Of a DNA stretch of 64,000 nucleotides, positions 12,498 to 55,933 are shown piece by piece. The DNA lies in NCBI RefSeq assembly GCF_000802385.1, contig NZ_JTDN01000002.1, forward strand, positions 62,001-126,000, in the 5' to 3' direction. A program made the translations under genes and the position numbers. Below the pieces are notes generated by a model. The model saw nothing but the letters and a program-made list of their open reading frames with translations, was not told where the DNA came from and searched no databases. Source of the DNA: Croceibacterium mercuriale. Its GTDB lineage: Bacteria > Pseudomonadota > Alphaproteobacteria > Sphingomonadales > Sphingomonadaceae. Every line of letters starts with the position of its first letter. Positions within the stretch are counted from its first letter, which is position 1.

Positions 12498-12506
12498 GTA
12501 TGACAA
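12498..12506. promoter_or_regulatory. Putative pectin-regulon operator, site 1 (GTATGACAA)
   Basis: GTATGACAA lies in the divergent GH28/gntR promoter region, about 75 bp from the GH28 start and 84 bp from the regulator start. Identical or near-identical motifs occur in the promoter regions of the other pectin genes, so it is a candidate site for the GntR/FadR protein encoded next to it, acting on both GH28 and the regulator itself. Confidence 0.5.
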
Positions 12507-12590
12507 GCGCAAGAGGCATTGTTCGGACGGCGTGCGATGCGGTAGGGAACGTACCCGGCGCGGGGCGCGCCGCTGCACAAGGATCCCTCC

Positions 12591-13304
12591 ATGGCCAAGG
12601 CCGCTTCGCTTGCCGACACGCTCTACGACAAGCTGAAGACCGAGATCATCGACGGTACCATCCCGCCCGGATCGCGGCTGCCTTCGCAGAAGGACATCGC
12701 CACCACGCAGGAGGTCAGCCGTACGGTGGTGCGGGAAGCCGTCGCCCGGCTGGAGGCGCAGGGTTTTGCGGAGTCGCGGCAGGGATCGGGCGTCTATGTG
12801 GCGCCGGGTGCCCGCTACCGCGCCTTTCAGGTCACCCGCGAGGAGCTGGGCGAACTGAGCGATATCCTGAAGTTACTGGAAATGCGCCTGGCGATCGAGG
12901 CGGAGATGGCCGGCCTCGCCGCCGCCCGCAGGGACCAGCCGGACATCGACGCGATGCGCGCTGCGCTCCGCCAGATGGCGGAGGTCAGCCATGATCCCGC
13001 CGCCTCCGCCCTGGCTGACGCGCAGTTCCACCTGGCGATCGCGCGGGCGACCAAGAACGACTACTTCGCGCGCTTCATCGACTTCCTGGGCGTGCGCCTG
13101 GTTCCGCCGCGCAACCTGTACCTGCGTGACCAGCCGGGCGAGGCGCATGACGAATATGTGGCCAAGGTGCGCGCCGAGCATGATGCGATCCTGGCCGCGA
13201 TCGTGCGCATGGACATCACCGGCGCGCGCGAGGCGGCCCGCCATCACATGACCGAAAGCCTGTCGCGCCATTCGGAACTGAGCGGCGACCTGCCTGTCGG
13301 GTGA
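12591..13304 (+). CDS. GntR/FadR-family (FCD domain) transcriptional regulator
   Basis: Likely local repressor of pectin genes that responds to a uronate intermediate. Residues 1-70 form a winged helix-turn-helix: LADTLYDKLKTEIIDGTIPPG, then SRTVVREAVARLEAQG and the wing RQGSGVYV. Residues 95-230 are an all-helical FCD ligand-binding domain with D/H residues for a metal (DAQFHLAIARATKN, EHDAILAAI, EAARHHM). FadR-type regulators bind short imperfect palindromes. It is flanked by GH28 and kduI, with candidate operators on both sides (12498 and 13333). It resembles hexuronate regulators such as KdgR/ExuR analogues of this class, but the ligand is inferred. Confidence 0.93.
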   Translation: MAKAASLADTLYDKLKTEIIDGTIPPGSRLPSQKDIATTQEVSRTVVREAVARLEAQGFAESRQGSGVYVAPGARYRAFQVTREELGELSDILKLLEMRLAIEAEMAGLAAARRDQPDIDAMRAALRQMAEVSHDPAASALADAQFHLAIARATKNDYFARFIDFLGVRLVPPRNLYLRDQPGEAHDEYVAKVRAEHDAILAAIVRMDITGAREAARHHMTESLSRHSELSGDLPVG

Positions 13305-13332
13305 TCGTCCCGTTTGACAGCGCCATGAAGAT

Positions 13333-13341
13333 GTATGATAA
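13333..13341. promoter_or_regulatory. Putative pectin-regulon operator, site 2 (GTATGATAA)
   Basis: Part of GATGTATGATAACTT (13330-13343 region), about 115 bp upstream of the kduI TTG start and just after the regulator's stop. The 15-base context is the same as that at 19440 in front of the TonB receptor. TAT-G-ATA is a small palindrome with flanks that fit a FadR-type operator. Confidence 0.55.
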
Positions 13342-13455
13342 CTTTTACCGTCGGGGGAGAGGCACCTGATATTCCGCTCCGTAACTGCCGCTTCAGGCTG
13401 GCAGCGGGCCGGACATGAGCGCAGCGCCGGGGCCTTCCGGCAGGAGACAGCATCC

Positions 13456-14292
13456 TTGTTCGAGAAGACTTTCTACGCCACCCATCCCGAGATGATGGAC
13501 GGGGCGAGCCAGCAGGACCTGCGCGACCGTTACCTGGTGTCCGGCCTGTTCCGTGACCGCGAGATCGTGCTGACCTACTCCCATGGGGAGCGCTTCATCA
13601 TCGGTGGCGCGGTGCCCGGCACGGGCGTGCTGGACCTGCCGCGCCACAGCGAACCGCCCAGCGCTGCCGGCCATCCGCTGCTGGAGCGGCGGGAGCTGAG
13701 CGTGGTCAATATCGGCCGGGGCACGGGCGAGGTGATCGTGGATGGCACGGCGGTGACGCTGGACCGCTACGATGCGCTGTACGTGCCGATGGGGACGCAG
13801 GACGTCCGCTTCTCCGGCGAGGGCGCGCGCTTCTACCTGCTGAGCGTGCCGGCCCATGCCGCCTTCCCGCTGCGCCGCGTGACGCTGGACGATGCCGCCA
13901 CCATGCACCGCGGCAGCCTGGAAACGGCCAATGCGCGCACCATCCACCAGCTGATCCTGCCGCACACCGTGCAGAGTGCCTCCCTGTGCCTTGGCCTCAC
14001 CCGGCTGGAGCCGGGCAGCGTTTGGAACACCATGCCGCCGCACATCCATGAGCGCCGGTCGGAGATCTATCTCTATTTCGACCTGGAGGATGACGGGCGC
14101 GTGTTCCACTTCATGGGCCAGCCGGAAGACCTCCGCCACATCGTGATGGGGGACGAGGACGTGGTGATCAGCCCGCCCTGGTCCGTCCACATGGGCTCCG
14201 GCACGCGCAATTACAGCTTCGTATGGGCCATGGCCGGAGAGAACCTCGATTACGAGGACATGGACGTGCTGGACGTCTGCCAGCTGCGCTGA
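13456..14292 (+). CDS. kduI: 5-dehydro-4-deoxy-D-glucuronate isomerase
   Basis: Isomerises 4-deoxy-L-threo-5-hexosulose uronate, the product of unsaturated galacturonate, to 3-deoxy-D-glycero-2,5-hexodiulosonate in the cytosol. The 278 residues match KduI. The cupin zinc ligands lie in [15 protein letters not shown] (two His and a Glu) and [10 protein letters not shown] (the fourth His). The N-terminus [13 protein letters not shown] fits the family. The start is a TTG at 13456 with AGGAG nine bases upstream; no ATG is available in frame nearby. kduD and kdgK, the next two steps, are not in the window. Confidence 0.95.
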
Positions 14293-14297
14293 GACGG

Positions 14298-14325
14298 CCG
14301 GCGGCGCCCCGCAAGGCGCCGCCGG
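14298..14325. terminator. Bidirectional hairpin between kduI and the GH105 gene
   Basis: CCGGCGGCGCC and GGCGCCGCCGG form a perfect 11-bp stem with a six-base loop in the 41-bp gap between two convergent stops. There is no U-tract on either side. Its position suggests a shared terminator for both transcripts. Confidence 0.55.
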
Positions 14326-14333
14326 ACGGGGGA

Positions 14334-16559
14334 TCAGAAGGCGAAGCTCTCGCGCGCCACCATTGCTTCCCATGCGGCCTGGTCCGGCACGTCGCCGCCG
14401 CGGTTCCAGGCGGACCCCATGTAGTAGGTGAACGGCTTGCCCGGCTCGACCCGGACCAGCACGAGGTAGTTTTCCGCGTCCTGCGTGAAGCCGACCACCA
14501 TTGCCGGATCCACGGCGATGGCGATGCCCAGCGCGCCATGCTCGGCATCCTCCGTTTCCCAGAAGGTCATCCGGCCGGTCGCCTTGTCGGTGCGCAGCAC
14601 GCCCGTGCCATTGGCCTTGCCGATGCCGATCCCGACGACCAGCGTCTCATTGTCGCTGGAGCTGATTGTGGAGCGCATCCGGGTAAAGTGCGAGCCTAGC
14701 GGCAGCGTGAACTCGCGCGTTTCCGCCACGTTGCGGATCACGTCGACCGGCCATGGCTGGTAGGTCGCGGTGAACCGCGCCACGTCGCCGCCGGTCTCCA
14801 CGATGTCGTAGGTCGCGAAGTTGCGGCTGGTCCACAGCTTGTTGTCGTGCCAGATCCCCAGCCCGCCGGTCCCGCGCGAACGGCCGACATCGTAGAAGTC
14901 GAGCCCTTCCCCACGGTCGATGTGGTAATTGGGAAACTTCAGCTGCCGGTCCATAAAGGGGTAGCGGACCCGCTTGGCCCACGCATCGATGCCGGAGCCG
15001 GACGGCGCCTCCTTCACCTGCAGCGCCGGACCGTAGATGCGGTGCGCGACCAGGTCGTTCTCCCACAACAGGTCATCCAGACGGTCGGGTGCGAAGCGGG
15101 CCACGGCGCGCGGGCGCTGCTCTGCCTCCGGAGGCGGAGCGAGCGGCTCCACCGCTTGCGGACGGCCGGTCGCCACAGGGTCGTAGGCGAGCGCCTGCGT
15201 CGCCTGCATCTCGGCCTGACGCCGGGCGACTTCCGCATCGCCGACCACCGTGCGCGGTGCGGGCGGTGTCGGCATGGTCGCGGCGATCCATTCGGCGCTG
15301 TCGCGCGCCGGCTCCGGCCGGGGCAGCGGCTGCTGCCCGCCACCGGCCATGTCGGCCATCTCCAGCGCAGCCAGGATGTACGCGCCGTTGGCGTACGGCC
15401 CGGTATGTTCGGGCGCGGTATGGACCGGCTGGTCGCCGGTGCGTTGCGCCGAGCCCAGCTGCCCGTTCGGCAGGATGTTGCGGTTCAGCGCGGCGAACCC
15501 CCGCTGCACATGCGGCGTGACCGCCTTGCGGTCCAGCACGCCATGATTGACGCCCCACGCCAGCGCATAGGTGAACAGCGCGGAGCCGGAGGTTTCCGCC
15601 TCCGGATAGGCGTCCGGCGCCAGCAGGCTGGCCGGCCACAAGCCATCCGGTCGCTGCAGCTCGACCACCCGGCCGGCCAGCTGGCGGAACAGGTCGAGAT
15701 AGTAGTCGCGCCCGGCAAAATCTGCCGGCATCGCCTCGATGAAGCGGGCCAGCCCGCCCAGCACCCAGCCATTGCCGCGTGACCAGTAGATCGGCTGGCC
15801 GTTCGCTTCCGTACGACCGATGAATCGCTCGTCACGCAGGAACAGCCGGTCCTCCGGCACCCACAGGCGCGCGGCGGTGCGGCGCCATTCCTTGTCGGCG
15901 GCAAGCAGGTACTTCGGATTGCCGGTGATCGCCGACATGCGCGCCAGCACCGGCGGCGCCATGTACAGCGCGTCGCACCACCACCAGATTAGCGGGCCCG
16001 CGCCCTCGGCATTGTCCGCCCGGGCAAGGTGCGGCACCTGCCAGTCGAGCCGCTGCTGCAGTGGCAGCAACGTGCCTTCGATCCGACGGCGGGAATACAG
16101 TTCCTCGTACAAGTCACCCACGGCGATATCGTCGGCGTTCAGCATGGTCGGGCCGGACTTCGCGCCGCGCACCGCATAATTGTAGTGGTCCGCCACCATG
16201 GTCAGGAAGCGGAGCGTTTCCGGCCGGTCGGACACGCGGGCCAGCCGTGCGGCGCCGGTGTAGTAGATTGCCGCCACCCAGTTCGGCGCCATGCTGTCGA
16301 GCGCGCCGCCGGTCGACAGCGGGATGGGCTGGCGCGCCATATCGGCGATCTGCGCCGCATTGACATACTCGGCCGCGGCCAGCGCCTCCGCCCGCGTGGG
16401 CAGGCGGGCGCCGGTGGTGTCCAGCGCAGGACGGGGCAGCGGCTCCAGCCAGGCAGCCTCCACCCCGGGTAGCAGCGCCGCCTGCGCGCCTTGCGCCATG
16501 GCCCCGGCCAGCAGGATCGCACCCAGCATCCGGAACCTGCGTTGACGGCTCGCCCGCAT
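14334..16559 (-). CDS. GH105 unsaturated rhamnogalacturonyl hydrolase fused to DUF4861
   Basis: Predicted periplasmic enzyme that removes the unsaturated uronic acid left at oligosaccharide ends by pectate/rhamnogalacturonan lyases. After a signal peptide (MLGAILLAGAMAQGAQA), residues of about 55-400 form a six-hairpin GH88/GH105 barrel with VGDLYEELYSRR, LIWWWCDALYMAPP and YWSRGNGWVLGGLARF. A proline/alanine-rich linker follows, and from about residue 485 there is a DUF4861 domain (WENDLVAHRIYGPALQV, LPLGSHFTRMRS, PFTYYMGSAW) of unknown activity. GGAGG lies nine bases before the ATG at 16559, which is preferred over the ATG at 16565. The gene follows the TonB receptor by about 20 bp on the same strand, so they are probably co-transcribed. 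Confidence 0.9.
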   Translation of the reverse strand: MRASRQRRFRMLGAILLAGAMAQGAQAALLPGVEAAWLEPLPRPALDTTGARLPTRAEALAAAEYVNAAQIADMARQPIPLSTGGALDSMAPNWVAAIYYTGAARLARVSDRPETLRFLTMVADHYNYAVRGAKSGPTMLNADDIAVGDLYEELYSRRRIEGTLLPLQQRLDWQVPHLARADNAEGAGPLIWWWCDALYMAPPVLARMSAITGNPKYLLAADKEWRRTAARLWVPEDRLFLRDERFIGRTEANGQPIYWSRGNGWVLGGLARFIEAMPADFAGRDYYLDLFRQLAGRVVELQRPDGLWPASLLAPDAYPEAETSGSALFTYALAWGVNHGVLDRKAVTPHVQRGFAALNRNILPNGQLGSAQRTGDQPVHTAPEHTGPYANGAYILAALEMADMAGGGQQPLPRPEPARDSAEWIAATMPTPPAPRTVVGDAEVARRQAEMQATQALAYDPVATGRPQAVEPLAPPPEAEQRPRAVARFAPDRLDDLLWENDLVAHRIYGPALQVKEAPSGSGIDAWAKRVRYPFMDRQLKFPNYHIDRGEGLDFYDVGRSRGTGGLGIWHDNKLWTSRNFATYDIVETGGDVARFTATYQPWPVDVIRNVAETREFTLPLGSHFTRMRSTISSSDNETLVVGIGIGKANGTGVLRTDKATGRMTFWETEDAEHGALGIAIAVDPAMVVGFTQDAENYLVLVRVEPGKPFTYYMGSAWNRGGDVPDQAAWEAMVARESFAF

Positions 16560-16582
16560 CACCATGCCCTCCCTTGTTGTCG

Positions 16583-19390
16583 TCAGAACGATGCCCGCGC
16601 GCCGATCAGGAACTCACGCCCGAAATGCCGGTAGTTGGACACCCTGTTGGTCGCATCGACGTAGCGGTCGCTGTACTCGTCCGTCAAATTGATCGCCTCG
16701 ACCGACAGGCGCACGCCGTCCGTCACCTCGTAGGAGATGGAGGCGTCGATGTTCAGCGTGGCGTTCACGCCCTCCTCGCTGTTGCCGTTGCCGCCCGGGA
16801 AGCTGACGAGGTAATCGTCGCGATAGGCGGCGGAGGCACGGGCGCTGAACCTGTCATCCTCGTAATACAGCGTGGCGTTGTAGATGAGGTTGGACTGGCC
16901 CGTCAGCCGGTTGCGGCCCGAAGCGCCATAATTCACGTCGGAATCGATGAAGGTCACGTTGCCGATGAAGCCGGTGTTGTTCAGCACGCCCGGCAGGAAG
17001 GTGAACGGCTGCTGGTACTGCAGTTCGATCCCCTTCAGTGTGCCGCCCTCGCCATTGACGCGGCGGATCACCTCGAAGTCCTCGTCCGGCGAGGCGGGGG
17101 TGCCGGCCAGCAGGCTGTCGGGCAGACCCAGGCTGCGCCACGGCACCATCTCGGGATCGGCCGTGTTGATGAAGCTGTCGACCTTCTTGTAGAACACCGC
17201 CGCCGCCAGCAGAGCCTCCGGTGCGAAATACCATTCGACAGAAGCGTCGTAATTCGTTGCTTGGAACGGGGCCAGCAGCGGATTGCCGTAGGTAACGCGG
17301 CGCGTCGGGATGGACAGGGTGCCACCTGGCGTCAGGTCTCCCAGCGACGGGCGCGAGATCACCTTGGCCGCACCGAGCCGGACCACCAGGTCCTCTGCCG
17401 GTTCGACCGCCAGGTTGAAGGATGGCAGCCAGTTGCTGTAGCCGTTGTCCACATCCACATATTCCGGCTCCGCCACGCCGCCATCCGCACCCAGGAAGCC
17501 GGACGAGGTCGTCTGGGTGTGGGCGTAGCGCAGGCCCACATTGCCGCGCACCGTCAGCCCACCGACCAGCGTGTCGAAATCGACCTGGGCGAAGGCGCCC
17601 GTATCCTCTTCCTGCACCTCCCGCGTGCCGTTGAAGGCCGGGATCAGCGGGTCGTTGTAACGGGTCAGCACATCGTTGATCGCGAAGATGTCGGGCACGA
17701 TGTAGTTCAGATCGGTCCCCGCCGGGATGTCGAGGCCGCCGGCAATAGTCTCGATCTTGCCGAGGTTCGTGACGTCGGTGGCCCGGTCGGCGCCGGTCAG
17801 GGCGGAGACCGCCTGCTGGAAGCCGAACGTGTCGAAGCCGTAGGTCCGGTACTCGGCGCCCGCCTTGATCGTCAGATCGTCGGTCAGGTCATATTCCAGC
17901 CGGCCGGCGGCGGTCTTCAGCCGGTAATCCGCACCGCCGGTGCTGCGTCGCCACTCGGTCAGTGTGAAGTTGCGGCCATCGGTCACGTCGAAGCCATAGG
18001 AGATCTGCGGCAGGCGGTCGTTGCCGCGGAAATCGTAGGTGAAGCCGTCCACGTTCAACGCGTCGAACATGTAGGACACCGACAGCGGGGTACGCAGCTT
18101 GGAGTGGGATGAACCCAGCTTCAGGAAACCGCGGAAACGGTCGGTGAAGGCATGGCGCGCGTTCAGCGACACCTGCAGGAAACGGCTCTCGTCGCGGCTG
18201 AAGCCATTCTCGCTGCGGACGTCGACATTGTCGAACACGCCATAGGACAGCGTGTTCTTCTCCCGGTCGATCTCGTACTCGCGCAGCACCGTCTCGCGCA
18301 CGCCGCCGGCCGCGCGGCTGAAGCTGATCGCTTCAATGTTGGGGCTCTCCGCCTCCTGGTTGAAGCGGGAATACAGCCCGTCGAGGATGATCTCGGTATC
18401 CTCCGTCGGCTTCCATTGCAGCGATCCGGTCAGGCCCAGCCGGTCTTCCGAGAACGAGCCGATCGTGTAGCGCGGGATACGCGGATAGAAGGCGGACAGC
18501 ACTTCGGACCGCTGCTCGGCCGTGGTGCAGGTCACGCAACCGGCGAAGTTGTTGCCCGCACCATAGGCCTGCGCCGGATTGCCGCTCTGCCAGCGGGTGG
18601 TGTTGAAGCTCTCGCTGGTCGGGCGCCGCTCGCTATAGGCGACGGAGACCAGCGCACCAAAGGTCTCGTCATCATTGGCCCAGCTGAGCAGGCCGGCAAG
18701 CCGCGGGAGGGTCTTTTCGGACAGATCGTTATAGGACGCCTGCCCCGCCACCGCGCCATGGATGCCGGCACCGAAGTCCAGCGCGCGGCCGGTCTGCAGG
18801 TCGACCGTCGCACCGAGCGATCCTTCCTCGATCTCCGCCGACTGCGTCTTGCGCACGGTAATGGAGTTGAACAGTTCGGACGCGAAGATCGAGAAGTCGA
18901 AGCCGCGGCTGCGATTGCCGCCCGCGGCCGCCTGTGCCTCCAGCCCGTTGATCCGCACGCGGGTGAAATCGGCACCTAGCCCACGCACGCTGATCGTGCG
19001 GCCCTGCCCGCCGTCACGCTCGATCGTCACGCCCGGCAGGCGCTGGATCGATTCCGCCAGGTTCAGGTCGGGGAAATCGGCCATGTCCTCGGCCAGGATG
19101 GTATCGACCGCACCGGCCTCGTTGCGCTTGATGTTCAGCGCGCGATCCAGGCTGCCACGGAAGCCGGTCACGACGATCTCGCCATCGGTGGTCGCGGCAT
19201 CGGCATCATCCGCACCCTGCACCTCGCCCGAGAACGGGTCGGTGACCGTGTCCGCAGTCGCAGCCGGCTCGGCACTGGTACCGCCGGGCAGTGGCGCGAC
19301 CTGCGCCAGCGCCGGCATGGCACCGATCATCATCGCGAACGCAGAGGTACGCAGGCCCAGACGGGCCCGTGTGGTGAGAACTTCAGGCAT
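16583..19390 (-). CDS. TonB-dependent receptor (pectin-oligosaccharide uptake)
   Basis: Outer-membrane receptor that imports ligands using TonB energy; here probably oligogalacturonides or rhamnogalacturonides. Signal peptide MPEVLTTRARLGLRTSAFAM...ALAQ is followed by a TonB-box-like EIVVTGFRGSLDRAL, a plug with LAESIQRLPGVTIERDGGQG and ISVRGLGADFTRVRING, and a long beta-barrel ending in aromatic Phe (FLIGARASF). This is the Xanthomonas/Caulobacter receptor type (TIGR01782-like). The start at 19390 is chosen because the earlier in-frame start at 19480 would put an operator inside the coding region. GH105-DUF4861 follows in the same transcript. Ligand is inferred from context. Confidence 0.93.
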   Translation of the reverse strand: MPEVLTTRARLGLRTSAFAMMIGAMPALAQVAPLPGGTSAEPAATADTVTDPFSGEVQGADDADAATTDGEIVVTGFRGSLDRALNIKRNEAGAVDTILAEDMADFPDLNLAESIQRLPGVTIERDGGQGRTISVRGLGADFTRVRINGLEAQAAAGGNRSRGFDFSIFASELFNSITVRKTQSAEIEEGSLGATVDLQTGRALDFGAGIHGAVAGQASYNDLSEKTLPRLAGLLSWANDDETFGALVSVAYSERRPTSESFNTTRWQSGNPAQAYGAGNNFAGCVTCTTAEQRSEVLSAFYPRIPRYTIGSFSEDRLGLTGSLQWKPTEDTEIILDGLYSRFNQEAESPNIEAISFSRAAGGVRETVLREYEIDREKNTLSYGVFDNVDVRSENGFSRDESRFLQVSLNARHAFTDRFRGFLKLGSSHSKLRTPLSVSYMFDALNVDGFTYDFRGNDRLPQISYGFDVTDGRNFTLTEWRRSTGGADYRLKTAAGRLEYDLTDDLTIKAGAEYRTYGFDTFGFQQAVSALTGADRATDVTNLGKIETIAGGLDIPAGTDLNYIVPDIFAINDVLTRYNDPLIPAFNGTREVQEEDTGAFAQVDFDTLVGGLTVRGNVGLRYAHTQTTSSGFLGADGGVAEPEYVDVDNGYSNWLPSFNLAVEPAEDLVVRLGAAKVISRPSLGDLTPGGTLSIPTRRVTYGNPLLAPFQATNYDASVEWYFAPEALLAAAVFYKKVDSFINTADPEMVPWRSLGLPDSLLAGTPASPDEDFEVIRRVNGEGGTLKGIELQYQQPFTFLPGVLNNTGFIGNVTFIDSDVNYGASGRNRLTGQSNLIYNATLYYEDDRFSARASAAYRDDYLVSFPGGNGNSEEGVNATLNIDASISYEVTDGVRLSVEAINLTDEYSDRYVDATNRVSNYRHFGREFLIGARASF

Positions 19391-19439: not shown

Positions 19440-19448
19440 GTATGATAA
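19440..19448. promoter_or_regulatory. Putative pectin-regulon operator, site 3 (GTATGATAA)
   Basis: GTATGATAA, in the context GATGTATGATAACTT, lies 50 bp upstream of the TonB receptor start. The 15-base context equals that in front of kduI. A second, weaker copy is 100 bp further upstream at 19547. Confidence 0.55.
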
Positions 19449-19546
19449 CTTGACACCGGTGGCAAGGCAGTTCGCCACAAAAAATGCCGGTTACGCAGAT
19501 CGTTAGCAGGCGACTGACCCGCAACAGGGACGAATGGTGCCCGCTT

Positions 19547-19555
19547 GTATGACAG
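19547..19555. promoter_or_regulatory. Putative pectin-regulon operator, site 4 (GTATGACAG)
   Basis: GTATGACAG lies 157 bp upstream of the TonB receptor start and just beyond the PL22 stop. It differs from site 1 at the last base only. Two sites spaced by about 107 bp could allow looping or cooperative binding. Confidence 0.4.
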
Positions 19556-19570: not shown

Positions 19571-20938
19571 TCAGGCTGCGCGAGCCAGATCCACCACATA
19601 GACGTGGTTGCTGCCGTGCATGTTCGAACAGAAGATGATGGAGCGACCATCCGGCGTGAAGGTCAGGTTCGGCTCCAGCCGGTAATCATGCGCGCGCATG
19701 TCCACCAGCCGGGTGGGGCGCATCACCTGTGCGGTGACCAATTCCGCCTTGTCGCTTTCCGTATCCGCATCCGGCACCGTCTCGGGCCGCAGCAGCGCCA
19801 GCCATTTGCCGTCTTCCGCATGCGCCACCATGTCGGCGTCGCCGCCATCGCTGGCGAACAGCGTGCCGTCGGGTGACTGGTTGAAGTGCACGCCCCAATC
19901 ATTGCGCTCGACCCGGCGCCAGATGCGTTGCCCGGTTTCCAGGTTGACGGAGGCGACCCAAAACACCTGGCCACGCGGGGTCTGCAGGTCGTAGAATACC
20001 TCCTTCCCGTCAGGCCCGAACCATTCATGGCCGAAAATCTCGAAATTCATCGTCCGCTCGTGCGTGCGGCGCAGGTCGGTGCCGTCGGTCTTCATCGTCC
20101 ACATCCGGTCGACCCGGTGCCACGGCCCTTCATGGCAGAAGATGATCCGCCGCGGATCGGTCGGTGAAAACTGCGTGTGGCCGATCCATTCGGTGGTGCT
20201 GTGCAGCACCCGCCGCTCGCCGGTGCGGATGTCCAGCGTGAAGATCTCCATCGGATAGCGTGCGGCCCACCGCTCCAGCATGCGCACGCCTTTCGCCCGT
20301 GCGAAGTTGAGCGGCTTGCCGTCCGGGCCGACCGCTGCATATTCCGCCTGGTCGAAGCGCCGGTTGCGCGGATCGGCGACGCCGGGCTGCAACGGCTGCG
20401 AGCCATAGGCGACGAAGCCCAGCATCAGCGTGTCATCTGCATTGGCGGCATTGATCTGGCCATTGTCGATCCGCCCGATCCGGCGGGCCTCGCCGCCATC
20501 GGCGGAGATGGCATAGATCGTGCGCGGACGATCCATCGGCTGCGCCTCGCCCGGCTCGCTGACGCTGTAATAGACGTCGCGATTGGTGCGGGCGGTGAAC
20601 ATCAGGTCGGCATGCGGGTCCGCCACCAACACGCGCAGCGCGCCTGTCGCCGGGGAGACCACCGAGATCCCCTCAGGCGTGCTCATCACCATCAGGTCGC
20701 CTTCGGGCGTGAAGCTGTTCTTGTAGAAGTACAGCTTGCCGCCGCCCCCGTCGGGGCTCAGCCGGCGGATGCGGTAGCCGGTCGCCGGGTCGATCCAGTC
20801 ACGCGGCGCCAGGCCGCCGGCTACGGGCGGCGGCGCCTCGGCCTGGGCCATCGCCGCGCCCGCGCGCAGGGCGCCTGCCGCCACCGTGCCGGCCGCAAGG
20901 CCCTTCAGCAGGCCGCGCCGTGTCTGGCCGTCAATCAT
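19571..20938 (-). CDS. ogl: Oligogalacturonate lyase (PL22), Tat-exported
   Basis: Beta-propeller lyase that cleaves digalacturonate and short oligomers to the unsaturated monomer. The N-terminus TRRGLLKGLAAGTVAAGALR...AMA is a twin-arginine signal, so the enzyme should act in the periplasm, whereas the classical enterobacterial Ogl is cytosolic. Propeller repeats start TGYRIRRLSPDGGGGKLYFYKNSFTPEG; FCHEGPWHRVDRMW and FGHEWFGPDGKEVFYD carry His residues that match the Mn2+ site of the family. Length is 455 residues. It follows the six-hairpin gene by 12 bp and is probably its operon partner. Confidence 0.92.
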   Translation of the reverse strand: MIDGQTRRGLLKGLAAGTVAAGALRAGAAMAQAEAPPPVAGGLAPRDWIDPATGYRIRRLSPDGGGGKLYFYKNSFTPEGDLMVMSTPEGISVVSPATGALRVLVADPHADLMFTARTNRDVYYSVSEPGEAQPMDRPRTIYAISADGGEARRIGRIDNGQINAANADDTLMLGFVAYGSQPLQPGVADPRNRRFDQAEYAAVGPDGKPLNFARAKGVRMLERWAARYPMEIFTLDIRTGERRVLHSTTEWIGHTQFSPTDPRRIIFCHEGPWHRVDRMWTMKTDGTDLRRTHERTMNFEIFGHEWFGPDGKEVFYDLQTPRGQVFWVASVNLETGQRIWRRVERNDWGVHFNQSPDGTLFASDGGDADMVAHAEDGKWLALLRPETVPDADTESDKAELVTAQVMRPTRLVDMRAHDYRLEPNLTFTPDGRSIIFCSNMHGSNHVYVVDLARAA

Positions 20939-20950: not shown

Positions 20951-23230
20951 TCATGGTGCGGGGGCGATGCCTTCGGCCCGCACGGTCCAGCCGTCTGCGG
21001 GGAAGCCGGGGGCATGCCCCTCGGCGCCGTCCCACCCGGCGGCCATCAATCCCACCGCCCACAGCAGCGCGCCGTTGGACGGGAAGTAGGTTTCCGCGGC
21101 GCGGCGATAGCCGGCACCGTCCGAATTGGTGGCCATTGCCACTCCGCCGGCCCCGCCGGACACCGGCACCAGATCCTCCGCATGTGCATCCAGATGCACC
21201 CGCGGCGTCATGCCGGTCACGCCCCACTGGTTGTTCTTTCGCTCCGCAAACAGCCAGTCGACCGCCTCCTCCGGCCGGCCCAGCCGCGCGGCCGCCATGG
21301 CCAGCATCGGAAAGTCCCAGCCCCAGGTCTGCCGCAGATCCCAGTGCGCGCTGATGGCGGACAGGGTGCGACGCATGGCGTCCTGGTCGACCTGCTCCCC
21401 GGGAATGAAGCCATAGGCCATCATGAAGGACGGGTGGTCACGGTTTTTGCACTGCGCGGCATCGGCCGCGCCGCTGCACGCGGCCGATGCCGCGATCTGC
21501 CAGAAGTCGGGCTCACTCTCCGCCGGCAGGTACAGCCCGTCCTTCATCGGCAGCGGCGCCAGCCGGCGCAGTGCCTCGGTCCATTCAGGCTTGGGCGGCA
21601 GGCCCTGCCGTGTCCGCCAGTCCTGCGCCACCGTCAGCGCCCAGCGGAAATAGGCCAGTTCGAACGTCGGATTGACCGTGGTCAGCGGATCGTAGTTCTC
21701 CTGCGCCGGGATCAGCGGCGGGCCGAGATTGCGTCGTCCGTCCTTCTCCAGCGGCCAGGACGCCAGCAGGTCCGCGCTCGCCTCCACAACTTCGCCATAC
21801 TGCCCCAGTACCCCGGCCTCCTCGCCGGGTCCGGTCCGCGCGCGGCGCACCAGCTCGGCCAGCAGGATCGGGTGCGGCTGCTGCCACATCAGGAACGGGG
21901 ACACCAGGCTGGGGCTGTTGCGCCCTTCCGGGCCGACCATCTTGGGCCACCAGGCGCCGGCTACCCCGTGCCGCGCGGCTTCCTCCCGGGCGCGCGGCAG
22001 ATGCGCGACATACCAGGGCAGGCTGCGCTCCAGCATGTCGGCATGGCCCCACATGGCCTGCCACGCGGCGTGCCATGGATGCATCTCCAGGTGGAACTTG
22101 CCGAACCAGCTGTTGGAGAACAGCCCCTCCTCCTGCGGCGGCAGGGTGCCGGCACCATTGATGGCGGACAGGTACTGCGACAGCACCACCCGCCGCTCCA
22201 GCTCCGCCGCACGCGGATCGGTGCTGCCGGTGAAGTCCACCGCACCGCCACCGGTCCAGAAGCTGCGCCAGTGCCCGGCCACCGCGTCGGTGCCGTGCGC
22301 GAAGGACGGCAAGGGTGCGGCCTCGGCCGTCTGGTCGAACGCCACCTGCAGGCGCAGCACCGTGCCCGTGCCGGTCGCCAGCACGCCGGCATCCCCGTCC
22401 ATCGCCAGCGCCCCGTCACTTTCCACGGCGGACCAGTAGCGGGTGGCATCGAGGTCGCGCCGAAGATGCACGCGCTGCGGGGTCACGCTGACCAGTTCCG
22501 TCGTGCCGCCACCGTCCCAGCGCGCCGGGTCGGGATTGATCTGCGGGTCCACCCCCGGGTAGTGCACCGACAACGCCAGCCGGCCAGCCTCGACCAGCGG
22601 CGAGGTCACCTCCACCGCGATCACGTCCCGGCTCGGCAGCACGCGGGTCACCACCGTGACCGGCTGCCCGGCATAGGCGAAGCGGCTGGTCAGCGTGCCG
22701 GTCCACAGGTCCAGCTGCTGGTGCGTCCCGCTCACCTGGGCGAAGTCCGGTGCGGCGCCGTCCACCACCATGGCGATGCGCCCCAGCGCGATCCGGTGCG
22801 GATTGGCCCGCAGCCAGTTCAGCGCGGGATTGGTTTCCGCATCGGCCCAGCTGCGCATCCAGGCATAGGGCTGCTCGCCCCGCCCCGGCACGGGCACCTG
22901 CACCAGCCCGGCCTTCTCCTCGGCCGCGCCTTCGGGGAAGCTGTGCCAGCCCCATTGCGCCATGGTCAGCAGCGGCACCAGTTCCGAGTAGCGCTCGGGA
23001 AAGGTCTGCAGGCCGGTGATGTCGGCGGTGAAGCCCAGCTCGCCATTGCCCAGCATGACCGGCGCATGCGGGTCGATTTCGGTCAGCACCACGTCGTGCC
23101 GCTGCACCAGCGCCTGCCGGTCGATCGGCTGTGCGATGGCCGGCACGGCCAGCAGCAGCACGGCAGGCCACGCCACCAGCCTGGCCATGCGGTGCCACAT
23201 CGTGCGCGGGCTCGCTTCTGTTTCCGGCAT
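20951..23230 (-). CDS. Six-hairpin glycosidase-like periplasmic protein, specificity unknown
   Basis: A 759-residue exported protein. Signal peptide: LVAWPAVLLLAVPAIAQ. Residues of about 35-280 look like a beta-sandwich (APVMLGNGELGFTADITGLQTF; repeated short strands), and residues of about 330-740 are helical with an (alpha/alpha)6-barrel look (FSNSWFGKFHLEMHPWHAAWQ, GVAGAWWPKMVGPEGRNSP, WGWDFPMLAMAAARLG). This layout resembles GH65/GH95-type enzymes, but I cannot place it in a named family. An AAGGGA motif five bases before the ATG at 23230 decides the start. It precedes PL22 by 12 bp and shares a divergent, operator-bearing promoter with the PL10 gene, so a role in pectin side-chain or oligomer breakdown is likely. 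Confidence 0.8.
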   Translation of the reverse strand: MPETEASPRTMWHRMARLVAWPAVLLLAVPAIAQPIDRQALVQRHDVVLTEIDPHAPVMLGNGELGFTADITGLQTFPERYSELVPLLTMAQWGWHSFPEGAAEEKAGLVQVPVPGRGEQPYAWMRSWADAETNPALNWLRANPHRIALGRIAMVVDGAAPDFAQVSGTHQQLDLWTGTLTSRFAYAGQPVTVVTRVLPSRDVIAVEVTSPLVEAGRLALSVHYPGVDPQINPDPARWDGGGTTELVSVTPQRVHLRRDLDATRYWSAVESDGALAMDGDAGVLATGTGTVLRLQVAFDQTAEAAPLPSFAHGTDAVAGHWRSFWTGGGAVDFTGSTDPRAAELERRVVLSQYLSAINGAGTLPPQEEGLFSNSWFGKFHLEMHPWHAAWQAMWGHADMLERSLPWYVAHLPRAREEAARHGVAGAWWPKMVGPEGRNSPSLVSPFLMWQQPHPILLAELVRRARTGPGEEAGVLGQYGEVVEASADLLASWPLEKDGRRNLGPPLIPAQENYDPLTTVNPTFELAYFRWALTVAQDWRTRQGLPPKPEWTEALRRLAPLPMKDGLYLPAESEPDFWQIAASAACSGAADAAQCKNRDHPSFMMAYGFIPGEQVDQDAMRRTLSAISAHWDLRQTWGWDFPMLAMAAARLGRPEEAVDWLFAERKNNQWGVTGMTPRVHLDAHAEDLVPVSGGAGGVAMATNSDGAGYRRAAETYFPSNGALLWAVGLMAAGWDGAEGHAPGFPADGWTVRAEGIAPAP

Positions 23231-23298: not shown

Positions 23299-23307
23299 AT
23301 ATGACAT
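23299..23307. promoter_or_regulatory. Putative pectin-regulon operator, site 5 (ATATGACAT)
   Basis: Lies within AAGTTATATGACATGTAA (23294-23311), between the divergent six-hairpin and PL10 genes. Read on the minus strand it is ATGTCATATAACTT, which matches ATGTATGATAACTT of sites 2 and 3 at 11 of 14 positions with the same arms. It could control both divergent transcripts. Confidence 0.5.
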
Positions 23308-23423
23308 GTAAGACCCTGATTGACACCGGTGGTCTTTGTTTCGGGTCCGCACCGCCGGGATCCGATCGGACAAGTAGCGGGACAACCGCTCGCACGCCGG
23401 ACGGCCATGTGGAGAAGACCGCC

Positions 23424-24713
23424 TTGAAGACACGCACCCTGCTCGCCCTGTGCCTGGCCGCTTCCGCCCTGACGGGGGGCGCGGCGCATGGCAAGGTCAT
23501 CGCCATCAACACGCCGGCGCTGTCGCTGACGCTGGACCGGATCGGCACCCTGCCCGACGATCAGCAGCCCGTATGGCGCGATTACGTCCTGCGCTCGCAG
23601 TTGCAGATGCAGGTCGACCGGCAATCGCTGGTGAATGAACTGGAGCCCGGGCAGGAACCGCCCCCGCCGCCGCAGGCGGTCGGCCCATCTGCCTACAACA
23701 TGCCGATCGATCGCCCGGCCGAATGGTACGGCACTGCGGAAGCGCGGCAGGTCGCCGACACCATCGTCAGCTTCCAGACGCCGGCCGGCGGATGGAGCAA
23801 GAACCAGAACCGCGCCGGCCCGCCGCGCCTGCCGGGCCAGCGCTATGCCAATGATGCGGAGACCATGACGCAGGACCCGGGCAATTTCGACGCCCCGCAT
23901 GACCGGTTCTGGACCTTTGTCGGCTCGCTGGACAACGAGGCCACGACCACGGAGATGCGCTTCCTGCAGCAGGTCGCCGCCGCGCTGCCCGGGGACGAGG
24001 GCGACAAATACCGCGAAAGCTTCGTGCGGGGCGTGCAGTATCTGCTGGCCGCGCAGTACCCGAACGGGGGCTGGCCGCAGAACTGGCCGCTGGAAGGCGG
24101 CTTCCACGACGGCATCACCTTCAACGACAATGCCGTGGCCAGGGCGGCAACCTTGCTGGGCGAGGTGGCCACGCAGCCACAATACGCCTTCGTGCCGCAA
24201 TATCTGCGTGCCCGGTCGGCAACGGCCACCGCCAAGGGGATCGAGGTGATCCTGGCGGCGCAGGTGCGGCGCGACGGCGCCTTGCTGGGCTGGCCGCAGC
24301 AGGTCGACCCGCTGACGCTGGAGCCGATCTCCGCCCGCAATTACGAACCCCGCTCCATTGCCAGCGGCGAGACTACGGACATTCTGGAATTCCTGATGAG
24401 CCGGCCCGATCCAAGCCCGGAAATGCGTGCCGCGATCGAAGGGGGCGTCGCCTGGCTGCGATCGGCGGCGGTGCGCGATTATGCGTGGGAGCGTGTCGGC
24501 AATGAAGGACGGAAGCTGTTCCCCCGCGCAGGTGCCGGGCCGCTCTGGTCGCGCAATTACGACGTCAACAACGGGCAGCCTATCTTCGGTGACAAGGACC
24601 GCACCATCCACGACGATGTGAACAACATCTCCGAAGGGCGCCGCAATGGCTACAGCTGGTGGGTCACGCAGCCGCAGCGCGCGCTCGACGCTTACGAGAA
24701 CTGGGGCAAGTAG
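23424..24713 (+). CDS. pelA: Pectate lyase, PL10 family
   Basis: Cleaves polygalacturonate by beta-elimination, giving 4,5-unsaturated oligomers. Signal peptide: LKTRTLLALCLAASALTGGAAHG. The (alpha/alpha)-toroid catalytic part has the PL10 signatures SFQTPAGGWSKNQNR, YPNGGWPQNWPL, GITFNDNAVARAATLL and PQQVDPLTLEPISARNYEPRS with the catalytic arginine. Mature length is about 400 residues. The start is taken as TTG at 23424 because GGAG lies nine bases before it; a GTG at 23409 is in frame but lacks a good ribosome site. It is divergent from the six-hairpin/PL22 operon and converges with the helicase gene, with only 3 bp between the stops. Confidence 0.92.
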   Translation: MKTRTLLALCLAASALTGGAAHGKVIAINTPALSLTLDRIGTLPDDQQPVWRDYVLRSQLQMQVDRQSLVNELEPGQEPPPPPQAVGPSAYNMPIDRPAEWYGTAEARQVADTIVSFQTPAGGWSKNQNRAGPPRLPGQRYANDAETMTQDPGNFDAPHDRFWTFVGSLDNEATTTEMRFLQQVAAALPGDEGDKYRESFVRGVQYLLAAQYPNGGWPQNWPLEGGFHDGITFNDNAVARAATLLGEVATQPQYAFVPQYLRARSATATAKGIEVILAAQVRRDGALLGWPQQVDPLTLEPISARNYEPRSIASGETTDILEFLMSRPDPSPEMRAAIEGGVAWLRSAAVRDYAWERVGNEGRKLFPRAGAGPLWSRNYDVNNGQPIFGDKDRTIHDDVNNISEGRRNGYSWWVTQPQRALDAYENWGK

Positions 24714-46626: not shown

Positions 46627-48441
46627 CTACAGCCCGGCCATCGCCAGCATGGCGGTACCGCCCTTCTCCGCCTCGTCCGCCCCGTGGCGGAACATGGCGA
46701 ACAGCTCGCGCCCGGTGCCGCTCTCGGACGGGGGCGTGGGCGCATCCTCGCGCAGCGACAGGTCGGCCGTGGTGCCGAGCGTGCCATCCTCCGCCGACAG
46801 CCGCACGATGTCGCCGTCGCGCAGGCGCGCCAGCGGGCCACCACCCAGCGCCTCCGGGCTGACATGGATCGCCGCGGGTACCTTGCCGCTGGCGCCGCTC
46901 ATCCGCCCGTCGGTGACCAGCGCCACGTTGAAGCCCCGATCCTGCAGCACCCCCAGCACCGGGGTCAGCTTGTGCAGTTCGGGCATGCCGTTGGCGCGCG
47001 GGCCCTGGAAACGGACCACGACCACCACGTCGCGCTCCAGCTCCCCGGCAGCGAAGGCATCCGCCACGGCCTTCTGGGTGTGGAACACGCGACACGGCGC
47101 CTCCACCGTCCAGCGGGACGGATCGACCGCGCTGGTCTTGAAGCAGCCGCGGCCCAGATTGCCCTGCACCAGCACCATGCCGCCTTCCGGCTGGAACGGC
47201 GCGCTGTGCGGGCGCAGGACCTCCTCGTCGCCGGACGGGCCGGGATCGCGCCAGGCCAGCGTCTCGTCGTCGAGCCATGGCTCCTGGGCGAAGGCGCCCA
47301 GATCGTCGCCGAATGTCGTCATGATGTCGCGGTGGAGCAGGCCCGCATCGAGCAACTCCCGCACCACGAAGCCCAGCCCGCCGGCGTTCTGGAACTGGTT
47401 CACGTCCTTTGCGCCATTGGGATAGGCGCGCACCAGCAGGGGCACGGCCCGGCTCAGCTCGGCCATGTCGTCCCAGTCGATCAGGACGCCGGCAGCGCGG
47501 GCGAAGGCGGGAATGTGCAGCGCGTGATTGGTCGAACCCCCGGTGGCCAGCAGGCCGACCACGGCATTCACCACCGAACGTTCGTCCACGCATTCGGCCA
47601 GCGGGCGATAATCGCCGCCATCGCGGCCGATCTCGGCCAGCCGCTGGGTGGAGGCGCGCACCAGCGCCTGGCGCAGCGGCGTGCCCGGATTGATGTAGGC
47701 CGCGCCGGGCATCTGCAGGCCCATCATCTCCAGCATCATCAGGTTGGAATTGGCGGTGCCGTAGAAGGTGCACACGCCCGGCGAATGATAGCTCCTGGAC
47801 TCGCTCTCCAGCAGCTCCGCGCGCGTCGCCTTGCCCTCGGCGTAAAGCTGGCGGATCCGCTGCTTTTCCTTGTTGGCGATCCCCGTCGGCATGGCCCCGG
47901 CCGAGATGAACAGCTGCGGCAGCCAGCCGAAGCGCAGGCCGCCCATCAGGAGGCCGGGCACGATCTTGTCGCACATGCCCAGATGCGCCACGCTGTCATA
48001 CATCGCATGGCTGAGGCTGACGGCGGTGGACAGCGCGATCACGTCGCGGCTGAACAGCGACAGTTCCATGCCGTCCGTACCCTGCGTCACGCCGTCGCAC
48101 ATGGCGGGGGTCGCGCCGGCGACCTGGCAGGTGGCGCCCACCTCCCGCGCCCAGATCTTCATCTGCGGCGGATAGGCGGCGTAGGGCTGATGCGAGGAAA
48201 TGGTGTCGTTGTAGGCGGTGATGATGCCGATGTTCGGCCCGCGCATGGTGGCGATGCTCGCCTTGTCCTCCCCCGCGGCGGCGAAGCCGTGGGCGAGGTT
48301 GGAACAGGGCAGCGCCACATTGCGGTCGCGGTGCCTGTCCCCCTCCTCGCGCATCAGCGCCAGATAGGCGGCACGGCTGGCCCGGGACCGTTCGATCACG
48401 CGGTCGGTCACGCGCTGGATTGCGGGATGCAGGTTACTCAT
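46627..48441 (-). CDS. edd: Phosphogluconate dehydratase
   Basis: [Fe-S] dehydratase that converts 6-phosphogluconate to KDPG. Residues 1-604 match Edd; NIGIITAYNDTISSHQPY, CQVAGATPAMCDGVTQGTDGMELSL, VAHLGMCDKIVPGLLMG and CTFYGTANSNLMMLEMMGL carry the cluster cysteines, and LVTDGRMSGASGKVPAAIHVSPEA is the C-terminal signature. Its ATG lies inside the zwf end (8 bp overlap). Confidence 0.97.
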   Translation of the reverse strand: MSNLHPAIQRVTDRVIERSRASRAAYLALMREEGDRHRDRNVALPCSNLAHGFAAAGEDKASIATMRGPNIGIITAYNDTISSHQPYAAYPPQMKIWAREVGATCQVAGATPAMCDGVTQGTDGMELSLFSRDVIALSTAVSLSHAMYDSVAHLGMCDKIVPGLLMGGLRFGWLPQLFISAGAMPTGIANKEKQRIRQLYAEGKATRAELLESESRSYHSPGVCTFYGTANSNLMMLEMMGLQMPGAAYINPGTPLRQALVRASTQRLAEIGRDGGDYRPLAECVDERSVVNAVVGLLATGGSTNHALHIPAFARAAGVLIDWDDMAELSRAVPLLVRAYPNGAKDVNQFQNAGGLGFVVRELLDAGLLHRDIMTTFGDDLGAFAQEPWLDDETLAWRDPGPSGDEEVLRPHSAPFQPEGGMVLVQGNLGRGCFKTSAVDPSRWTVEAPCRVFHTQKAVADAFAAGELERDVVVVVRFQGPRANGMPELHKLTPVLGVLQDRGFNVALVTDGRMSGASGKVPAAIHVSPEALGGGPLARLRDGDIVRLSAEDGTLGTTADLSLREDAPTPPSESGTGRELFAMFRHGADEAEKGGTAMLAMAGL

Positions 48442-51452: not shown

Positions 51453-51457
51453 GCGGG

Positions 51458-53628: not shown

Positions 53629-53706
53629 GGGACCGCCATAAGGCACCGGCAATCTGCTGCACAGGCGCGGCATGCCCGCCTGCCCCGCTCGCGCGTTATC
53701 CGGCGC

Positions 53707-55023
53707 ATGAGCGAAATGCGCTGGCTATGGTCCCGGCTGACCGGCAATTACTGGTTCTTCCCCACGCTGTTCGCCGTTGGCGCAACAGCGCTGGCGTTCG
53801 GCATGCTGGCGCTGGATCAGGCCGGCTTTGCGGAGTTGCTGAACGGCCAGGACCTGATCGTGCCCGCGCGCCCGGACAGCGCGAGCACCATGCTGTCGCT
53901 GATCGCCAGCTCGATGATCGGAGTGGCAGCAACGGTGTTTTCCATCACCATCGCCGCGGTCGCCTATGCCAGCGGCAGCTATGGCCCGCGTCTGCTGACC
54001 AATTTTATGCAGGACCGCGGCAACCAGTTGAGCCTGGCGACCTTCATCGGCACCTTTGTGTACGCGCTGGTCGTGCTGCGATCCGTTCGGGCAGCGGACG
54101 AGGCGACCACCAGCGCACAGAATGCCGCGGCCACCGCCCTGCCCGGCTTCGTGCCGCAGCTGTCGCTGCTGGTCGCGTTCGGCCTGATGGCGCTGTCCGT
54201 CGGCGTGCTGGTCTATTTCCTGAACCACATCCCCGATTCGATCCGGATCAACACGGTGCTGCGCGGCATCGGGCAGGCGCTGCTGGACGAGATTGCCGAG
54301 CTGCACCCGCGCCTTGGCGGCGGGGAGGAAGGGCGGGACACCCGATCCGGCGCACCGGTGCGTGCCCGGCGCGCCGGGTACATCCAGTTCATCGACTTCG
54401 ACGATCTGGCACAGGCCGCCCGCAAGCATGGCAGCTGTCTGGCCATGGAGGTCAGGACCGGCGACTTCATCCACGCGGGCATGGTGCTGGCGCGGGTGGT
54501 CGACGGCCCGGGGGATGACGCGATCGCCGATGCCGTGCGCCACTCCCTGACCATCGGTTCCGCCCGCACCCCGGCGCAGGATCCGCAGTTCCTGCTGGAC
54601 GAGCTGGTGGAGATCGGCCTGCGGGCGCTCTCGCCGGGGATCAACGACCCCTTCACCGCCATCACCGCGCTGCACTGGGTCGGCGCGGCCACGGCCGACC
54701 TGGCGCAGCGTGACCTGCGCAAGGTGGTGGCGGAGGAGGCGCCCGAAGACCGCAGCGTCATACCCCTGGCGGACGATTTCGCGCATTATCTGGCGCGCGG
54801 CTTCGGCGTGATGCGCTCCGCGGTGGCGACCAGCCGGCCCGCCGCGCTGGTGATGCTCGATTCGCTGCGCAATGCCGCCGGCGCCATCGATGATGAAGGA
54901 CGAACCGGGTTGCTACAGCGCGAGGGCGACCGGCTGCTGGAGCAGGCGCGGCTGGAGCTGGAAGGGCCGGACCTGCAGGAGGTTGAGGCACGCCACGCCT
55001 TGTTCGCCCTCGCGCTTCGCTGA
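53707..55023 (+). CDS. DUF2254 membrane protein
   Basis: A 438-residue inner-membrane protein of the DUF2254 family. Four hydrophobic segments lie in the N-terminal half: WFFPTLFAVGATALAFGMLA, GVAATVFSITIAAVAYASGSYGPRLL, LATFIGTFVYALVVLRSV and LSLLVAFGLMALSVGVLVYF. The soluble C-terminal half has YIQFIDFDDLAQAARKHG and ALSPGINDPFTAITALHW, which are family signatures. Function unknown. The stop is three bases before the CitE-like gene, so the pair may be an operon. Confidence 0.92.
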   Translation: MSEMRWLWSRLTGNYWFFPTLFAVGATALAFGMLALDQAGFAELLNGQDLIVPARPDSASTMLSLIASSMIGVAATVFSITIAAVAYASGSYGPRLLTNFMQDRGNQLSLATFIGTFVYALVVLRSVRAADEATTSAQNAAATALPGFVPQLSLLVAFGLMALSVGVLVYFLNHIPDSIRINTVLRGIGQALLDEIAELHPRLGGGEEGRDTRSGAPVRARRAGYIQFIDFDDLAQAARKHGSCLAMEVRTGDFIHAGMVLARVVDGPGDDAIADAVRHSLTIGSARTPAQDPQFLLDELVEIGLRALSPGINDPFTAITALHWVGAATADLAQRDLRKVVAEEAPEDRSVIPLADDFAHYLARGFGVMRSAVATSRPAALVMLDSLRNAAGAIDDEGRTGLLQREGDRLLEQARLELEGPDLQEVEARHALFALALR

Positions 55024-55026
55024 TAG

Positions 55027-55905
55027 ATGCCGGCGATGACACACGTACAGACCGGTCCGACGACGACACGATCATGGCTGTTCGCCCCGGGCGACAGCGA
55101 GCGCAAGCTGGCCAAGGTCGCGACATGCGGCGCGGACGTGGTGATCGTCGACCTGGAAGATGCCGTGGCCCCGCCGAACAAGGCGCGGGCGCGGGGCCTG
55201 GCTTCGGAATGGCTGGCGGACCATCCGAACGCCTGGGTCCGCATCAATCCCCTTTCCTCCGACCTGTGGCAGGATGACCTTGCCGCAGTGCTGCCCGCCC
55301 GGCCCGCCGGCATCATGCTGCCCAAGGCGGCCGGGCCGGTGGAGGTGGCGCAGCTTGCCGCCGCGATCACCGATGGCGCGGGCACCGACGCCGCGATCGG
55401 CATCCTGCCCCTGGTCAGCGAGACGGCCGCTGCGGCGCTGACCATCCCCCTCTATGCCGCTGCCACCCCGCCCCGCCTGGCCGGGCTGACCTGGGGGGCG
55501 GAGGATCTGTCGACCGTGCTGGGCGCCACGCGCAAGCGTGACGAGCGCGGGTTCTGGACCGATGCTTTCCGCCTGATCCGTGCGCAGGTGCTGCTGACCG
55601 CCCATGCGGCAGGCGTGGCACCGGTGGACACGCTGTTCGCGGATTTCCGCGATCTTGCCGGCCTCGCCCGCGTGGCCGCCGCGTCCTACGCCGACGGGTT
55701 CGCCGGGATGCTGGCGATCCACCCCGATCAGGTGGCGATCATCAATGCCGCCTTCACTCCCACCGCCGGGCAGCTGGCCGAAGCCCGCGCAATCATCGCC
55801 GCATTCGCGGCTGACCCCGGCGCGGGCGCGGTGCAGCTTGACGGGCGGATGCTCGACCAGCCGCATCTGGTCCTCGCCCGACGCCTGTTGGCACGTGCCG
55901 AATGA
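55027..55905 (+). CDS. HpcH/HpaI aldolase/citrate lyase (CitE-like) family protein
   Basis: A 292-residue TIM-barrel CoA-ester lyase of the CitE-like group, which cleaves or hydrolyses malyl-CoA, citramalyl-CoA or related esters. Landmarks: WLFAPGDSERKLAK (substrate Arg), VIVDLEDAVAPPNKARA (metal Glu/Asp), GIMLPKAAGPVEVAQL, and LAGLTWGAEDLSTVLGA. Without the citrate-lyase alpha/gamma subunits it is not a citrate lyase. Two ATGs (55027, 55036) are possible. It follows DUF2254 by three bases. The true substrate cannot be assigned. Confidence 0.88.
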   Translation: MPAMTHVQTGPTTTRSWLFAPGDSERKLAKVATCGADVVIVDLEDAVAPPNKARARGLASEWLADHPNAWVRINPLSSDLWQDDLAAVLPARPAGIMLPKAAGPVEVAQLAAAITDGAGTDAAIGILPLVSETAAAALTIPLYAAATPPRLAGLTWGAEDLSTVLGATRKRDERGFWTDAFRLIRAQVLLTAHAAGVAPVDTLFADFRDLAGLARVAAASYADGFAGMLAIHPDQVAIINAAFTPTAGQLAEARAIIAAFAADPGAGAVQLDGRMLDQPHLVLARRLLARAE

Positions 55906-55924
55906 ACAGGCGGCATCTTTACTC

Positions 55925-55933
55925 GTATGACAA
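55925..55933. promoter_or_regulatory. Putative pectin-regulon operator, site 6 (GTATGACAA), remote
   Basis: GTATGACAA is identical to the site in the GH28/gntR promoter 43 kb away. It lies 63 bp upstream of the second TonB receptor start, at a distance similar to that seen for sites 1 and 3. It suggests that the TonB/GH43 operon is in the same regulon. Confidence 0.5.

Follow-up and report, generated by a model that had tools for sequence, protein, structure and literature searches.

ExuR and UxuR of Escherichia coli are FadR-type regulators of hexuronate genes, and in an alphaproteobacterium, Caulobacter, hexuronate regulation by HumR, a member of the LacI family, reaches TonB receptors. Published accounts describe GguR-type GntR regulators, named for Halomonas, of galactarate, glucarate and hexuronate use (PMC5507952), a FadR-type operator consensus, TKGT-N3-ACMA (PMC4494728), and a footprinted site, GTTATCAGATAAC, for DhdR, the D-2-hydroxyglutarate dehydrogenase repressor of Achromobacter (PMC8651671), together with loci of Xanthomonas, Caulobacter and sphingomonads that combine carbohydrate-utilisation genes with TonB receptors (PMC1790865). 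The locus considered here lies in a 64-kb window (the whole stretch of DNA analysed, C2:62001-126000) of the 3.48-Mb, ten-contig genome of Croceibacterium mercuriale (G000), where a short motif, GTATGAYAA or a variant of it, recurs at six sites around a FadR-type regulator gene (12591-13304), pectin-degrading genes and two TonB receptors (Table 1). These sites are probably operators of the regulator, which would hold a dispersed pectin and hexuronate regulon, including its own gene, under repression and be released by a sugar acid derived from pectin. As in the loci of PMC1790865, TonB receptors are grouped with pectin-degrading genes; the excerpted text of that work gives those loci no FadR-type operator.

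The preliminary description of this DNA had placed GTATGAYAA or a close variant at six non-coding positions, and renewed searches and gene calls bear this out. Four sites (12498, 13333, 19440 and 55925) match exactly, that at 19547 (GTATGACAG) departs at one position and that at 23299 (ATATGACAT) at two, for which reason the latter is missing from the ten window matches found when up to one mismatch is allowed (shuffle mean 4.13; none of 100 shuffles reached ten). None of the six falls inside a called gene, in a window with a G+C content of about 69%. The sequence GATGTATGATAACTT is common to sites 2 and 3, and GTATGACAA to sites 1 and 6, as had been claimed. A matrix of 21 columns, trained on ten sites of the C. 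mercuriale genome, five of them in the window, ranks the six sites as the top six window positions, including 23299, which was outside the training set, and scores six window positions above 15 (shuffle mean 0.20; at most one in 20 shuffles). When the matrix is built from the five non-window sites only, the sites at 13333, 19440, 12498 and 55925 still rank first to fourth in the window.

Pattern searches of the whole genome, with the split between intergenic and coding copies resting on our own gene calls, return 16 exact copies of GTATGAYAA, ten intergenic and six coding. Nine of the ten intergenic copies adjoin genes for pectin, arabinan or TonB receptors, four of these copies being in the window and five elsewhere, at four loci: on C1, two copies separate a PL10 lyase from a TonB receptor, another has a TonB receptor on one side and GH43/GH51 genes on the other, one separates an MFS gene (which follows UxaA- and UxaB-type genes) from a TonB receptor accompanied by a BT_3657-like arabinosidase and GH127, and the last is bordered by a GH2-like/pectinesterase/PL10 run and by GH3/GH95. 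Contig C6 holds the tenth, whose neighbours match no Pfam family; like the six coding copies, it looks like background. Intergenic exact copies at genes unrelated to sugar use, which would speak against a shared operator, are hence few. A longer pattern, WTGTATGAYA, has 11 genome matches against one for its control, comprising six of the GTATGAYAA copies, site 19547, a coding match in the window at 47993, and three others, located upstream of a PL11 rhamnogalacturonan lyase (L214, score 13.2), in a non-sugar spacer (L213, 13.3) and on C4 (10.9); these scores mark the last three as weak, as is the coding match. Start codons are uncertain, and with the starts used (19388 for receptor 1 and 55979 for receptor 2), 12 of 14 gene-site pairs place the site 54-139 bp before the start codon, the other two distances being 13 and 177 bp.

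Regulator orthologues in other genera are accompanied by the same type of site. A match to the regulator at E<=1e-30 is found in 17 of 397 genomes of the family and in 8 of 96 genera, and the intergenic DNA of the 16 regulator loci outside the genus contains 44 matrix hits above 15, some of which count a single palindrome on both its strands; the mean in shuffles is 1.10. An intergenic hit is present at 14 of the 16 loci, within 350 bp of the regulator at 12 and upstream of it at 8. The consensus of these hits, AGTTGTATGACAACT, is a palindrome, AGTTGT-ATG-ACAACT, of the type bound by FadR-type GntR proteins. Two right-arm columns that weigh only 0.04 and 0.29 bits in the matrix are occupied by C and T, respectively, in 31 of the 44 hits each, which completes the palindrome. 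In the C. mercuriale genome the palindrome is imperfect, with between 4 and 11 of 11 sites paired at positions 2-6 from the centre. The central TTGT-ATG-ACAA of the other genera fits the FadR-type consensus TKGT-N3-ACMA, and several of the C. mercuriale sites deviate from it (ATGT, CTGT, ATAA). These comparisons, and the genome-wide contexts described above, lend support to the earlier proposal that one operator motif joins the pectin locus to a TonB/GH43 operon 43 kb away, with the adjacent FadR-type regulator as its candidate binder.

The co-occurrence of motif and regulator can also be counted by genome. The core TTGTATGACAA is present, in 32 genomes of the family, in 22 copies among 14 regulator-bearing genomes, 8 of which hold at least one (one of the 14, G198, bears a 42% match only), and is absent from 18 genomes lacking the regulator, which were picked non-randomly among relatives and lack it in the sense of having no match at E<=1e-30. 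Homologues of TonB receptor 2 in G197 and G310 (61% identity) adjoin GH28/GH88-like genes and TTGTATGACAA sites. Among 80 loci of named regulator homologues, the closest of which belongs to Croceibacterium ferulae (97% identity), 24 carry a hit above 15 in the 400 bp upstream, 21 of them among the 71 non-sphingomonad loci.

The protein encoded beside site 1 was already regarded as a FadR-type regulator, an assignment upheld by its GntR (71.0 bits, cut-off 27) and FCD (85.0 bits, cut-off 24.3) domains. Asp/His/His/His is the metal-site residue pattern of many FCD domains, and D143, H147, H197 and H219 are invariant in the 15 regulator proteins aligned, out of 20 family matches. The top 50 matches in PDB to a structural model of the regulator (predicted local distance difference test, pLDDT, 83.9; predicted template modelling score, pTM, 0.62) are all of GntR/FCD type, with full-length template modelling (TM) scores of 0.39-0.60. 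DhdR is the best PDB match both by sequence (E 7e-24) and by fold; the model fits DNA-bound DhdR best, and the effector domain alone reaches TM scores of 0.81-0.83. The footprinted DhdR site, GTTATCAGATAAC, and the reverse complement of TGTATGATAAC have the half GTTATCA in common. However, DhdR has about 33% identity to the regulator, another effector and other target genes.

A nearer functional counterpart may be sought among the GguR-type regulators, which are likewise FCD-type GntR proteins acting on sugar-acid genes. Beta-, gamma- and non-sphingomonad alphaproteobacterial homologues of the regulator, at 35-42% identity, have related sites upstream in some cases, and we infer that they are GguR. 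At the nine of 80 named loci where neighbours were viewed, mostly by eye, these include a glucarate dehydratase (821.4 bits, cut-off 828.7), KdgD (above cut-off) and, by eye, uronate-dehydrogenase-like genes. The GguR setting of GudD and KdgD contrasts with that of KduI, GH28, GH88, PL10 and TonB receptors found here, and neither GudD nor KdgD is among the window neighbours of the regulator. ExuR and UxuR resemble the regulator in being FadR-type proteins; orthology to either was rejected, with NCBIfam scores of 90.2 against a cut-off of 396 and 92.8 against 442. The regulator would act like a FadR-type catabolic repressor, and the new part would be its reach to dispersed TonB receptors and pectinases.

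Within the genus, G001 and G002 resemble G000 in carrying the regulator and PL10 lyases, and G003 (77% complete) and G004 carry neither. Intergenic exact copies of GTATGAYAA stand beside sugar or TonB genes in 9 of 10 cases in G000, 8 of 11 in G002 and 3 of 4 in G001, against none of three in G003 and G004 together (the neighbour being scanned for two of the three); one G002 site (L145) has no called genes around it. Loss of the motif from syntenic relatives, a possibility raised in the preliminary description, is not seen in G002 for sites 1, 2, 3 and 5, and G001 keeps site 3. The G002 stretches around sites 1, 2 and 5 are 85%, 93% and 84% identical throughout (site 5 itself being identical), so that retention of these three is weak evidence. 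At site 3, an invariant block, TGTATGAYAAC-N-TGACACCGGTG-N-CAAG, stands out from a three-species alignment averaging 56%, and judged by alignment site 3 is the sole sharp footprint among the four.

In the mechanism proposed, the regulator, a sphingomonad protein related to the sugar-acid regulators of GguR type, would bind as a dimer to the imperfect palindrome AGTTGT-ATG-ACAACT near the starts of its target genes. Besides its own gene, it would repress kduI, GH28, the genes of PL10 lyases and of several TonB receptors, and further pectin and arabinan operons across the genome. The repressor would be released when its FCD pocket binds a sugar acid derived from pectin (galacturonate or a keto-deoxy acid). 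A putative LacI-type operator would adjoin the FadR-type site in two places, TonB receptor 1 and the PL10 promoter.

Several observations weigh against this mechanism, or against parts of it. The reversed control of GTATGAYAA has seven genome copies, so that part of the 16 must be background. Sites 4 and 5 are weak when untrained: with the five-site non-window matrix 23299 ranks seventh and 19547 twelfth, and when 19547 is withheld from training 20 window positions score better, which makes site 4 weak on its own; its TGTATGACA core does recur in G002. Full-length TM scores of the regulator to DhdR are only 0.44-0.56, and two of the 16 regulator loci outside the genus have no intergenic hit. 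The TTG core of TTGTATGACAA was picked after the rows were seen, and the looser TNGTATGACAA has 27 copies in the 14 bearing genomes and 18 in the 18 lacking ones (reversed controls, 5 and 11). One of the 22 TTGTATGACAA copies (G407) is coding, and two, in G084, share their region with a different FCD gene and with genes unrelated to sugars. Among named sphingomonad homologues, finally, the 400 bp upstream contain a hit above 15 at only three of nine loci.

The G084 copies (L181, 5834 and 12490), whose region holds this other FCD regulator together with FAD-monooxygenase and FAA-hydrolase genes, represent the same core in a different regulon. They bear on the strongest alternative, in which another FCD regulator, such as that encoded at C1:1545568 near the arabinan locus, or overlapping FCD paralogues, would read some or all of the sites. 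The C. mercuriale genome holds ten FCD genes, the arabinan-locus site at C1:1537636 lies about 8 kb from C1:1545568, and a site scoring 16.5 is located about 2 kb beyond that gene. However, for none of the other nine FCD genes does the upstream stretch scanned contain a site scoring more than 13 (where the ninth starts is uncertain), and in other genera the sites accompany orthologues of the window regulator, so that a different FCD protein appears an unlikely reader of the motif. The resemblance of TATGAT to the TATAAT of sigma-70 -10 elements raises the further question of whether the motif is common to AT-rich promoters, and at kduI a TTGACA upstream is spaced 17 bp from a GATAAC within the site. 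Promoter-like matches near the sites are weak (8-10 of 12 positions), and the sites occur on either strand relative to genes: among those with a single downstream gene, three lie on the gene strand (kduI, TonB receptor 2, PL11) and three on the opposite one (TonB receptors 1, 4 and 5). Site orientation and gene context, with nine of ten intergenic copies at one gene class, led to the rejection of a promoter element as very improbable, and the palindrome reaches past the -10-like core. Chance matches in AT-rich spacers, for which the reversed-control count, the weakness of sites 4 and 5 and the near-equal scores of the L213 and PL11 spacers might be cited, are scarcely credible for the site set as a whole in view of the gene contexts, the sharp footprint at site 3 and the excess of hits in the intergenic DNA of other genera over shuffled versions of that DNA, and may hold for site 4 alone.

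A second operator may accompany that of the FadR-type regulator. The LacI-like palindrome core TGACACCGGTG adjoins the sites at 19440 and 23299, which suggests dual control by FadR-type and LacI-type regulators, and lies about 115 bp away from a further FadR-type site (L020). The core has nine copies in G000, four in G001 and nine in G002 (controls 0, 1 and 0), against none in G003 and one in G004 (controls 0 and 1). Of the other six G000 copies, one separates pckA from a response-regulator gene, one precedes a TonB receptor (C2:686331), one, at C2:686183, falls just inside that receptor's called start, and three are in coding sequence. A LacI-family gene at C2:497928 (L189) is flanked on both sides by the variant TTGACACCGGTTTCC and followed by kduD (287.9 bits over 193 amino acids, the cut-off of 338.85 applying to the whole protein), and this arrangement makes its product a plausible owner of the TGACACCGGTG palindrome. 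A more tentative idea, possible rather than probable, is that of composite operators, in which a FadR-type and a LacI-type repressor, whose genes neighbour kduI and kduD respectively, would read adjoining sites at the TonB receptor 1 and PL10 promoters, so that the outer-membrane gate would open only on two breakdown signals, with other pectin operons (and pckA) obeying one or the other.

Two further sites were seen outside the window. The uxaC/uxaA boundary (C2, L019 3676-3695) holds a perfect palindrome, TTGTGCCAACGTTGGCACAA, beside a LacI-family gene adjacent to uxaC and distinct from that at C2:497928, and the FadR-type site is absent there. In comparison with the LacI-family HumR, C. mercuriale has this LacI gene and palindrome of its own at the uxa locus. 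The pckA/response-regulator spacer contains TGACACCGGTGGTCA in G000 (L309, C1:1464329) and G002 (L314), and in G001 (L150, 6117) a FadR-type site, CTTGTATGATAAATCATT, instead; through these pckA spacer sites, gluconeogenesis may be tied to the control of pectin use.

The window genes and sites are collected in Table 1. The preliminary description had placed all six sites beside carbohydrate genes, and GH28, the GntR-FCD regulator, KduI, the GH88-DUF4861 gene, the TonB receptors, PL22, PL10 and GH43 stand as neighbours. The "six-hairpin" label given to the gene of 759-777 amino acids does not: no Pfam family reaches its cut-off with the protein, no sequence in PDB matches it at E<=0.01, its model, built from three sequences, has a pLDDT of 44, and a family name was given up on these grounds. 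The gene is conserved, with relatives at 69-88% in G418 and G002. Homologues of TonB receptor 1 are 84-85% identical in frame. dnaA (7633-9141, minus strand) lies about 2-3 kb away from the pectin locus.

Table 1. Candidate operators and genes of the C. mercuriale window, in window coordinates.
Feature	Position	Strand	Location or basis
Site 1, GTATGACAA	12498..12506	+	between divergent GH28 and gntR
Site 2, GTATGATAA	13333..13341	+	between gntR and kduI
Site 3, GTATGATAA	19440..19448	+	upstream of TonB receptor 1
Site 4, GTATGACAG, weak	19547..19555	+	upstream of TonB receptor 1
Site 5, ATATGACAT, two mismatches	23299..23307	+	between divergent unknown-family gene and PL10
Site 6, GTATGACAA	55925..55933	+	upstream of TonB receptor 2
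LacI-like palindrome core TGACACCGGTG	19451..19461	+	2 bp after site 3
LacI-like palindrome core TGACACCGGTG	23321..23331	+	13 bp after site 5
GH28, polygalacturonase/rhamnogalacturonidase-type	11113..12423	-	Pfam scan
FadR-type GntR-FCD regulator, 237 amino acids, likely (predicted) site binder	12591..13304	+	domains, fold
kduI, 5-dehydro-4-deoxy-D-glucuronate isomerase	13456..14292	+	KduI above NCBIfam equivalog cut-off
GH88 domain + DUF4861 domain gene	14334..16565	-	domain scan
TonB-dependent receptor 1	16583..19390	-	in-frame ATG at 19390
PL22 oligogalacturonate lyase	19571..20938	-	domain scan
Unknown-family gene, 759 amino acids (777 with longest frame, to 23284)	20951..23230	-	
PL10 pectate lyase	23409..24713	+	domain scan
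TonB-dependent receptor 2	55967..59002	+	
GH43	59002..60120	+	domain scan

A FadR-type pectin regulon for sphingomonads was not found in the open-access literature searched, and a search for the motif letters returned no paper on the subject, judged by title and abstract. Beyond the preliminary description, the analysis adds the palindrome, four loci outside the window and the second operator, and the pectin gene cluster hence becomes a testable genome-wide regulon. The sites suggest pectin or arabinan substrates for several TonB receptors, including receptor 2 at a distance of 43 kb, and a searchable operator is now available for the sphingomonads. The adjoining LacI-type sites, lastly, hint at two-signal control of an outer-membrane receptor.

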